Shown piece after piece: positions 22,776 to 63,512 of a DNA stretch of 64,000 nucleotides. The stretch lies in NCBI GenBank assembly GCA_017621705.1, contig JAGASR010000034.1, positions 1 through 64,000 of the forward strand, written 5' to 3'. The stretch comes from Clostridia bacterium. GTDB lineage: Bacteria > Bacillota > Clostridia > Oscillospirales > UBA644. The position numbers were made by a program, and so were the translations under genes. The notes under the pieces were generated by a model that worked only from the letters and a program-made list of their open reading frames with translations, ran no database searches and was not told the DNA's origin. Numbering within the stretch: position 1 is the stretch's first letter; each line of letters begins with the position of its first letter.

Positions 22776-22882
22776 ATTGACCCGAAGAAATACGAAGTAT
22801 TTCTTTCAAAGAACCTGAAGCATTAAGAACTGAGTCTGTTCGAAGAACAGATAAAGTTCCAAGAACGCATAGCGTTCTTATT
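22776..22882 (-). repeat. TTCTTTGAA-type hairpin array between rplJ and rplL
   Basis: Starting at the rplJ stop codon on the minus strand: AAGAACGCTATGCGTTCTT, then TCTGTTCTTCGAACAGA, then a stretch with two GTTCTT copies (one GTTCTTTGAA), then AGAAATACTTCGTATTTCT. These are palindromes joined by GTTCTT/TTCTTTGAA. The remainder of the gap (22627-22775) is the rplL leader, with no further structure that I can name. Confidence 0.7.
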
Positions 22883-38250: not shown

Positions 38251-38260
38251 GATGACTTTT

Positions 38261-38276
38261 TGTTTCACGTGAAATA
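38261..38276. promoter_or_regulatory. parS-like ParB-binding site
   Basis: TGTTTCACGTGAAATA matches the parS consensus TGTTTCACGTGAAACA at 15 of 16 positions. It lies 11 bases beyond array 6 and about 14 kb from parA-parB. Confidence 0.85.
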
Positions 38277-60940: not shown

Positions 60941-62299
60941 TTATTTTCCAACACAAAATCTGGAAAAAATATTATCGATAATTTCTTCGGATACGGTCTT
61001 TCCCGTCATTTCACCGAGCGCTTCAACGGCTCTTTCGATATCAGAAAGCAGTGCGTCTGCCGTAATACCGATATTTTCGAGCGCATGGGAAAGTTCGTTC
61101 TGCGCGGCGACAAGGCATTCGTACTGACGGACGTTCGAAAGCATAACGCTTTCTTCGCCCTCATAGCCGAGCGGAAAGATATTTGCGATCTCTTTTTCGA
61201 GAAGATCCATTCCGTCGCCTGTTTTTGCGCTGATATTGACCTTGACATTAAATTTTGAAAGCTCTTCGTCGGTCATATTGGGAGCTGTCGCAATGTCAGT
61301 TTTGTTAAAAACGGCTATTTTTTTCGCATCAGACGCCATAATTGCCGCCGACAACTCTTCGTCATCGAAAAGTTCACTGTCCGAAACGTCAAAAACACAT
61401 AAAATAAGCTCTGCTTCGCCGATCTTGCCAAGCGTTTTTTCAACGCCGATCTTCTCGACCTCATCGTCCGCATCGCGAACGCCTGCAGTATCGAAAAGAC
61501 GTAATTTAACGCCTCCGAGCTCTGCGGATGCCTCGATAACGTCACGGGTTGTGCCCGCAACGGAGGTGACGATGCATCTGTCTTCGCCTAAAATGCGGTT
61601 CATAAGCATGCTTTTGCCGACATTCGGTTTGCCTGCAATTACGGTTTTTACGCCCTCGCGGATCAGTCTGCCGGAATCGTAAGATTTCAGGAGCTTTTCG
61701 ATCTGCGAATAGGAACAGGTGATCTGCTCTCTGAGCGTTTCGGGATCGGTATCGACGATATCTTCATCGGGATAATCGATAAATGCAAGAAGCTGTGCGG
61801 AAATATTGATAAGGCCGTCTCTAATGGAGTTTATCTTGTCCGAAAGACTGCCCTTCATACGGCTGACTGCCGCCCTTGCCTCGGCTTTCGTTTCGCTGTC
61901 GATAAGGTCGATGATTGCTTCGGCTTTTAAGAGGTCAAGTTTGCCGTTAAGAAAAGCGCGTTTTGTAAATTCTCCGTTTTTTGCCTGGCGCGCGCCGTTT
62001 TTGATTAGCAGACGAAGAATGCGCGAGCAGTTGTAAACACCGCCGTGGCATGAAATTTCGACAATATCTTCGCCCGTGAAGCTTCTCGGCGCACGGAATA
62101 CGGAAACAAGAACATCGTCAACGGTTTCATTGCCATCGACGATATTCCCATGTATTACCGAAGACGACGCAACTTCGCAAAGATCACGGGAAAATATCTT
62201 CCCGACAACCTTCAGGGCTTCTTCGCCCGACACGCGTATTACGCCTATTGCAGCCTTGAACGGAGCAGTAGAAAGCGCAGCGATCGTTTCGTTTTTCAT
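60941..62299 (-). CDS. mnmE: tRNA modification GTPase MnmE (TrmE)
   Basis: 452 residues. With MnmG makes the cmnm5 modification of wobble U34. N-terminal folate-binding domain (ALSTAPFKAAIGVIRVSG), G domain with GKPNVGKS, DTAGVRD and NKTD, and C-terminal FCVGK with the essential Cys. Usual position between jag and mnmG/rsmG; here mnmG and rsmG are not adjacent. Confidence 0.97.
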   Translation of the reverse strand: MKNETIAALSTAPFKAAIGVIRVSGEEALKVVGKIFSRDLCEVASSSVIHGNIVDGNETVDDVLVSVFRAPRSFTGEDIVEISCHGGVYNCSRILRLLIKNGARQAKNGEFTKRAFLNGKLDLLKAEAIIDLIDSETKAEARAAVSRMKGSLSDKINSIRDGLINISAQLLAFIDYPDEDIVDTDPETLREQITCSYSQIEKLLKSYDSGRLIREGVKTVIAGKPNVGKSMLMNRILGEDRCIVTSVAGTTRDVIEASAELGGVKLRLFDTAGVRDADDEVEKIGVEKTLGKIGEAELILCVFDVSDSELFDDEELSAAIMASDAKKIAVFNKTDIATAPNMTDEELSKFNVKVNISAKTGDGMDLLEKEIANIFPLGYEGEESVMLSNVRQYECLVAAQNELSHALENIGITADALLSDIERAVEALGEMTGKTVSEEIIDNIFSRFCVGK

Positions 62300-62334
62300 A
62301 ATTTTTTTCCTTTAAATAAAGGGTTTTGAATAAT

Positions 62335-62557
62335 AAAATAACAGGTAAGGTAGAACTGAAAAAATTATTTTTCAGTTTAATCTTCCTTTTGAGAAGAAAA
62401 ACCGATAGGTTTTTACTTCAAAGAACGTAAATTCCTTTTTTCAAAGAAGAAATTCCGATAGGAATTTACTTCAAAGAATGTAAATTCCTATTTATTGAAG
62501 AAGAATAATCGAATGATTATTCTTCAAAGAACTGAAAAATTTATTTTTCAGTTCTTT
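62335..62557 (-). repeat. TTCTTTGAA-type hairpin array after jag
   Basis: Starting inside the last jag codons on the minus strand: a 15-bp stem AAAGAACTGAAAAAT / ATTTTTCAGTTCTTT, then AATAATCATTCGATTATT, then TAGGAATTTAC / GTAAATTCCTA with TTCTTTGAA in the loop, then a GGAATTTAC / GTAAAAACC copy, AAAAACCTATCGGTTTTT, and AACTGAAAAATAATTTTTTCAGTT at the far end. TTCTTTGAA or a near copy recurs about five times. Confidence 0.8.
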
Positions 62558-63512
62558 GTGCGCGTTTTTCTCCTGCGCGAAGCTCTATGGTAGGTTCGGT
62601 CTGTGCAGCCTCGGTATTTTCAACGGGTTTACGTTCACGGGGCTGACGGGGACGGTCGGAGTAGGGCTTTTTGTTGTAAGGTTTCTTGTTGTAGCCGCCG
62701 CGGTTTTCGTTGGAAGAAGCGTTTTCTTCGGTCTTAACGCGGGGAGCTCTCTTTTCGCCTTCAACAAAGGAGATTTCGGTCACACCGTTCTCGTTATTTT
62801 CGGATTCGGAATGATTGCGGTTATTGTTTTTATTGAAATTCTTCTTATAACCGCCTTTGCCCTGGGGTTTTCTCTGGGGACGCTGTTCACCGTCTTCACC
62901 CTGATATGCGATGACGACTTTTCTGTTCGGTTCGCTGCCAACGGAGAAGGTGGTGATGTTCTGTTCTTCCTGAAGACGGGTATGAATGATACGTCTCTGA
63001 TAAGCGCTCATGGGGTTGAGAGTTACACGTCTGTGAGACTTCTGAACCTGCTTTGCGATACGCATAGCGAGAGCTTCGAGGCGTTCTTTGGATTTTTCGC
63101 GATAGTCGTTGATATTGAGGGTAACTTTGTATTTGCTGTCGTTATCGTGATTTACGGAAAGTGCGATGATCATCTGAAGAGCTTCGATAGCTTCGCCCTG
63201 CTTTTTAAGGAAAATATCAGCAGCTTCGCCGTCGATTTTGATATTGATGTTCTCTTCTTCAACTGTTATGCTGGTTTTGCAGCCTTCAAGACCGATAATG
63301 TTAAAAAGACCGGAAAGGTATTCTTCGACCTTGTCTTCTGCAGAAATTTCGTACTTAACGCTGATCTTGGCGGGAACGGAACCTAGACCGAAAAAGCCTT
63401 TTTTCGGAAGTTCAACGATCTCGTAAGAAAAGCTGTCTTTGGACAGACCGAGTTCGAGCGCCGCCGCGTCGACAGCTTCCTCGATCGTTTTGCCCGTAAA
63501 TATCTTTTCCAC
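62541..63512 (-). CDS. jag: Jag/KhpB RNA-binding protein
   Basis: 323 residues. Jag-N (EKIFTGKTIEEAVDAAALELG), KH domain, R3H domain (LNPMSAYQRRIIHTRLQ), and a long disordered C-terminal tail from about 215 rich in Lys, Asn, Arg, Pro and Gly, longer than usual. KhpA/KhpB bind RNA and affect cell division and small RNAs. Its last residues RTEK and stop are coded within a hairpin stem. Confidence 0.93.
   Translation of the reverse strand: MEKIFTGKTIEEAVDAAALELGLSKDSFSYEIVELPKKGFFGLGSVPAKISVKYEISAEDKVEEYLSGLFNIIGLEGCKTSITVEEENINIKIDGEAADIFLKKQGEAIEALQMIIALSVNHDNDSKYKVTLNINDYREKSKERLEALAMRIAKQVQKSHRRVTLNPMSAYQRRIIHTRLQEEQNITTFSVGSEPNRKVVIAYQGEDGEQRPQRKPQGKGGYKKNFNKNNNRNHSESENNENGVTEISFVEGEKRAPRVKTEENASSNENRGGYNKKPYNKKPYSDRPRQPRERKPVENTEAAQTEPTIELRAGEKRAQRTEK

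Follow-up and report, generated by a model that had tools for sequence, protein, structure and literature searches.

A hairpin array between jag and mnmE in a Clostridia bacterium belongs to a small family of two-hairpin modules at core-gene stop codons

In the 64,000-nt stretch of a Clostridia bacterium genome analysed here (the window), the genes yidC, jag and mnmE follow one another on the minus strand, and a hairpin array spanning 62354-62558 lies between jag and mnmE on the coding strand of both genes. The array is real: the region 62335-62558 folds far below its dinucleotide shuffles on the plus (z -8.6) as well as the minus strand (z -7.7), and no shuffle equals either value. The first-pass annotation had described about 220 bp of nested palindromes; the palindromic fold is borne out (z about -8) but the nesting is not, the hairpins being mostly in tandem. 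Read along the minus strand, they are a stop-codon hairpin X1, then Y1, X2-Y2, X3-Y3 and a closing hairpin (Table 1), with the three units spaced at 53-54 nt, and tandem repeat finding returned a period of 53 nt with 2.6 copies. Each repeat is a module of two hairpins, about 48 nt long, in which hairpin X (RGAAY...RTTCY) is directly followed by hairpin Y (GAAG-N-AAA...TTTCTTC), and in which the stem feet are conserved and the stems are variable but covarying. The motif TTCTTTGAA, first thought to repeat about five times, has exactly four copies in the array (seven across the 64 kb, where 1.8 are expected) and corresponds to the X-Y junction, at which the 3′ arm of X (..GTTCTT) meets the 5′ foot of Y (TGAAG..).

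As had been proposed, the array starts within the final codons of jag: these form the 5′ arm of X1, and the jag stop codon TAA (62541-62543) sits at the tip of the hairpin. Most X1 pairs have probabilities of at least 0.95, and 10 of the 11 pairs of Y1 at least 0.94. Unit 2 can alternatively form a single longer hairpin at 62458-62491, and the computed fold favours this state; in unit 3 the competing pairing upstream is partly disrupted. The stems of the array are A+T rich and no U-tract follows them. A terminator scan of the jag-mnmE interval on the coding strand found no terminator in the array, that is, no GC-rich stem followed by a U-tract, and no promoter match was found there; therefore the polymerase probably reads through the array. 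mnmE has an AAAGGA site of its own, and the small hairpin predicted to hide this site partly is not common to the sister species (genome G008). Rfam release 15 gave no match in the array at the gathering score, the best weak match scoring 26.3 bits where the cut-off is 77.

Table 1. Features of the jag-mnmE interval and the second locus of the family in the window.
Feature	Position	Strand	Description
jag (khpB/eloR)	62541..63512	-	upstream gene, RNA-binding protein
Hairpin X1	62525..62558	-	CAAAGAACTGAAAAAT-AA-ATTTTTCAGTTCTTTG; perfect 16-bp stem
Hairpin Y1	62500..62525	-	GAAGAATAATC-ATTC-GATTATTCTTC
Unit X1+Y1	62500-62556	-	model R1 match, E 5.9e-4
Unit 2	62446..62489	-	X2 and Y2 (GAAGTAAATTCC-TATC-GGAATTTCTTC); model R1, E 1.7e-4
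Unit 3	62393..62436	-	X3 and Y3 (GAAGTAAAAACC-TATC-GGTTTTTCTTC); model R1, E 1.1e-6
Closing hairpin	62354..62377	-	AACTGAAAAATAATTTTTTCAGTT; near copy of the X1 core
mnmE ribosome-binding site (putative)	62309..62313	-	AAAGG, predicted within a small CCUUU/AAAGG hairpin
mnmE	60941..62299	-	downstream gene
rplJ-rplL array	22785..22880	-	second family locus in the window; E 3.1e-4

The jag array belongs to a small family, whose X-Y modules sit at core-gene stop codons. The genome was searched for further copies, and such copies exist. The strict pattern GAAGTAAAN{6,20}TTTCTTC has five matches in the genome, two in the jag array, two after efp and one upstream of a tRNA-Ser gene, and all five are hairpins whose inner stems are perfectly paired yet different. 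Since MAFFT could not align units of unequal loop length, a covariance model (R1) was bootstrapped from three equal-length efp units, two of them from the sister species, and no jag copies were used. Run over 487 kb, this efp-only model recovered the jag units, the tRNA-Ser copy and, in the sister species, one X-Y unit after rplJ and one copy after dnaA, and gave a weaker match at the rplJ array of the present genome. The resemblance to the rplJ array suggested in the first-pass annotation is thereby upheld: by covariance model the two arrays are one family, and both begin at a stop codon, the first rplJ-rplL hairpin lying right after that of rplJ. With a refined model (R2), seven confident units at four loci were found in this genome and four in the sister species, and no match below 0.005 in eight other members of the genus. 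Among 245 genomes of the order, matches below 1e-3 occurred in this genome and the sister species only, and five other genomes gave weak matches (0.0018-0.008) at about chance level; the number of first-look candidates scored in such large searches is limited, and weak copies may be missed. Family sites are thus found right after rplJ, efp, jag and, in the sister species, dnaA, and also upstream of the tRNA-Ser gene, where the copy is on the opposite strand and fits poorly with a role at a 3′ end. Literature searches turned up no description of the motifs. Two other ways of finding the family were given up: by DNA similarity alone, real extra copies scored E values of 0.08 (efp) and 0.99 (tRNA-Ser) at best, amid many chance matches, and the loose pattern TTGAAN{12,26}TTCTTC was swamped by chance matches.

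Pairing within the modules is maintained by compensating changes. In an alignment of 10 units (A3), 8 of the 19 pairs have changed on both sides and 97.7% of cells are paired, counts that lean toward structure because a structure-favouring model was used for aligning. The covariation score is 0.294, three times the shuffled mean of 0.096, and none of 500 shuffles scored as high; RNAalifold recovered the two hairpins X and Y from the same alignment, in which the outer feet of the module hardly vary. Compensation can be read by eye between units 2 and 3 and between orthologous efp and rplJ copies: in the Y stem of unit 3, TT has become AA relative to unit 2, and the opposite AA has become TT. 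Likewise, the orthologous hairpins of the sister species at efp, rplJ and jag keep their pairing via both-sided changes. Conserved feet and freely covarying stems together mark which parts of the element matter.

Feet that are conserved in sequence as well as in pairing, and a single nucleotide that bulges from Y at the same position in most copies, could point to a binding or processing site for a protein, e.g., an RNase acting on double strands or an RNA chaperone. KhpB, the Jag protein, is one such chaperone, and the largest array does sit on the gene for this KH/R3H RNA-binding protein. Since Jag is found in close relatives too and the element in two species only, we regard such a site as an improbable function. 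Another possibility is that the modules act at the DNA level, as a REP/BIME-like palindromic element in chromosome organization, for which the symmetry of GAAG...CTTC and the one inverted copy upstream of a tRNA gene could be invoked. This we consider very improbable, given that there are only seven confident units genome-wide and that the copies linked to genes lie on the coding strand and begin at the stop codon.

Comparison with relatives places the origin of the array on one branch. The gap between jag and mnmE is 241 nt here and 172 nt in the sister species, whose mnmE is 87% identical, and 1-2 nt in five other genus members (G001, G004, G005, G006 and G009; mnmE 73-75% identical); the array is therefore a recent gain within the operon. 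Comparing these orthologous intervals shows that it was apparently acquired by the ancestor that the two sister species share, in an operon in which jag and mnmE were 1-2 nt apart. In the relatives, Jag has about five more residues after a PEK or RPEK near its C-terminus, and here RTEK is directly followed by the stop codon; the start of the array therefore replaced the last few codons. In the sister species the first hairpin is at the same place with its pairing kept (AAAGAAC/GTTCTTT here, ATAGAAC/GTTCTAT there), and the hairpins beyond it have little sequence in common with those described here, a point against the functional reading favoured below. The relatives with a short jag-mnmE gap are also without an array at rplJ-rplL and efp, where their gaps are about 60 nt and about 12-15 nt, respectively. 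More generally, over 104 kb (the window and contig C21) the median gap between co-directional orthologous genes is 51 nt here versus 6 nt in G006 (47 pairs), with 23 gaps longer here by more than 30 nt and three shorter. Gaps are systematically longer than in G009 as well (median 51 versus 14 nt over 104 kb). Hairpins that include or directly follow a stop codon were counted at 26 of 338 genes here, 7 of 54 in the sister species, 0 of 92 in G006 and 2 of 79 in G009, against 4, 0, 1 and 1 in shuffled controls, a rough comparison in that the genomes were sampled with different sets of genes and the counts take in ordinary terminators.

A serious rival to the functional reading is that the arrays arose by neutral or selfish hairpin growth, in which template switching at replication forks would make inverted local copies that recombination spreads or homogenizes between loci, and that are tolerated at the 3′ ends of genes. 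The 5′ arm of X1 is jag coding sequence and its 3′ arm the inverted copy, and the end of dnaA in this genome is built likewise (AAAGATAGAAAATC-TGC-GATTTTCTATCTTT); such tailored stop-codon arms are well explained by hairpin growth, and the near identity of the closing hairpin to X1, the fast sequence turnover between the sister species and the generally longer intercistronic gaps are in line with it. However, the feet (GAAG/CTTC and RGAAY/RTTCY) are kept and the X-then-Y order is fixed in both species, at four or five genes unrelated to one another, copies are few, and they are sited where core genes have their stop codons. Hairpin growth is a possible, if less than likely, explanation. Template switching could in addition keep the arms complementary without selection, which counts against the functional reading that we favour.

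That reading, which we hold tentatively and at somewhat less than even chances, is that the jag array acts in the RNA as a structural element between cistrons, specific to this lineage, by which mnmE is uncoupled from jag and the message upstream is protected or insulated. Judging from sequence, we infer that jag and mnmE are co-transcribed, that their translation is uncoupled and that the upstream message is protected from RNases. Ribosomes would be released at the stop codon of jag, after which the hairpins could fold in the untranslated RNA. They would separate the translation of mnmE from that of jag, so that mnmE would need its own ribosome-binding site, and they may block 3′-5′ exonucleases or define a processing point. 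As a result, the upstream cistron would be stabilized relative to the downstream one, and transcription would not be ended. On our analysis, the most likely role would be a structural one, in cistron separation and shielding of the upstream mRNA. Intercistronic hairpins lacking U-tracts are known to protect upstream cistrons in E. coli, as in malE-malF and others, and Firmicutes may use other principles (PMC5927463). The arrays could also be imagined to attenuate or terminate transcription, lowering mnmE (and rplL) relative to the upstream gene. Some Y hairpins do have an A-tract/U-tract shape, such as AAAAAGCC-GTT-GGCTTTTT after efp and the terminator-like Y after dnaA in the sister species (AAAAAAACGC-TTT-GCGTTTTTTTT), and a further GC-rich hairpin with a T-run follows the efp array. 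On the coding strand of the jag array, however, the scan found no terminator, and strong termination within the rplJ-rplL operon would starve the cell of L7/L12, which is needed in excess; we therefore think it unlikely that the arrays serve as terminators. As for protection by intercistronic structure, RNA decay in Firmicutes proceeds partly via a 5′-3′ exonuclease, and the E. coli model may for this reason not carry over. The jag-mnmE operon offers a natural before-and-after pair, with genes that touch in close relatives and a 241-nt structured spacer here, and comparing the two states allows the effects of intercistronic hairpins on operon expression, and the birth of an array, to be tested.

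Among known systems, the REP/BIME elements of enterobacteria, including the one in malE-malF, are likewise palindromic arrays between or after co-transcribed genes. They protect upstream mRNA from 3′-5′ exonucleases (PMC5927463), attenuate transcription in some cases (PMC3049150) and usually number over 100 copies per genome (PMC2817692). Instead of many near-identical dispersed copies, the jag family has seven confident units at four loci, whose feet stay constant as their differing stems diverge by compensatory changes. In Streptococcus pneumoniae, BOX elements (boxA-boxB(n)-boxC) are modular, with variable internal units and predicted stem-loops in transcribed spacers (PMC3049150), and the jag family resembles them in its modularity, variable number of internal units and predicted stem-loops. 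Unlike in BOX, the first hairpin is built from the stop-codon sequence of the gene itself, and when the sequences of the jag, rplJ, efp and tRNA-Ser loci were read by eye, no common flanks comparable to boxA and boxC ends were seen. Families of repeated intergenic stem-loops with a common secondary structure, possibly acting as RNA, are outlined by Cozzuto et al. (2008) in a survey of 40 genomes of cultured species, the Firmicutes among them including Bacillus, Clostridium, Enterococcus, Lactobacillus, Staphylococcus and Streptococcus (PMC2267715); the jag family is likened to those families by their description.

Within the same genome, arrays built on AGCTAAAT had been paired with the jag array as two families of one architecture. 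The rule of placement is indeed common to both, and the build is not. The AGCTAAAT arrays mostly start between -10 and +41 nt from a stop codon whose gene has the same orientation, and at jag, rplJ and efp the members of the jag family likewise start at the stop codon, on the coding strand. However, the former consist of short, nearly perfect hairpins with a constant unpaired 8-mer between them, and the latter of two different hairpins whose constant parts are the stem feet and which exist in few copies. No AGCTAAAT occurs at 62335-62558, and the jag array is not of that family. Stems in the AGCTAAAT family are almost perfectly Watson-Crick (2 G-U among 344 pairs), and the departures from pairing are two G-U versus no A-C, compared with five versus four in the alignment of X-Y units. 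All 92 AGCTAAAT-N-AGCTAAAT pairs are on one 186-kb contig that carries dnaA and dnaN (window 1577-42182 and contig C21 77343-182238); 13 pairs were found in the sister species and none in 18 other relatives searched. AGCTAAAT is thus a regional, origin-proximal repeat family, and it is known from the same two species as the jag family. It could be that several independent hairpin families anchored at stop codons opened up tight operons in one small lineage and may be general RNA insulators between cistrons, each confined to its own genes or chromosome region, although we consider this generalization rather unlikely.

Further repeats were seen in passing. A parS-like site, ATTTCACGTGAAACA, at 38255-38275 of the window adjoins a AGCTAAAT array. 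After dnaA in this genome, the hairpin on the stop codon is followed by a weak Y-like hairpin (L128 3049-3110), and after dnaA in the sister species the stop-codon X-Y module is followed by an array with repeated CTCAGAATAAAAT between short hairpins (L133 8560-8680). The motif AAAACCTC occurs 16 times in 20 kb of L127 (C27:80001-100000), where 1.5 occurrences are expected, and a further array of spacers and hairpins, with the spacer ATATCACT/AGTGATAT, lies downstream of tRNA-Ser (L115 16095-16275).
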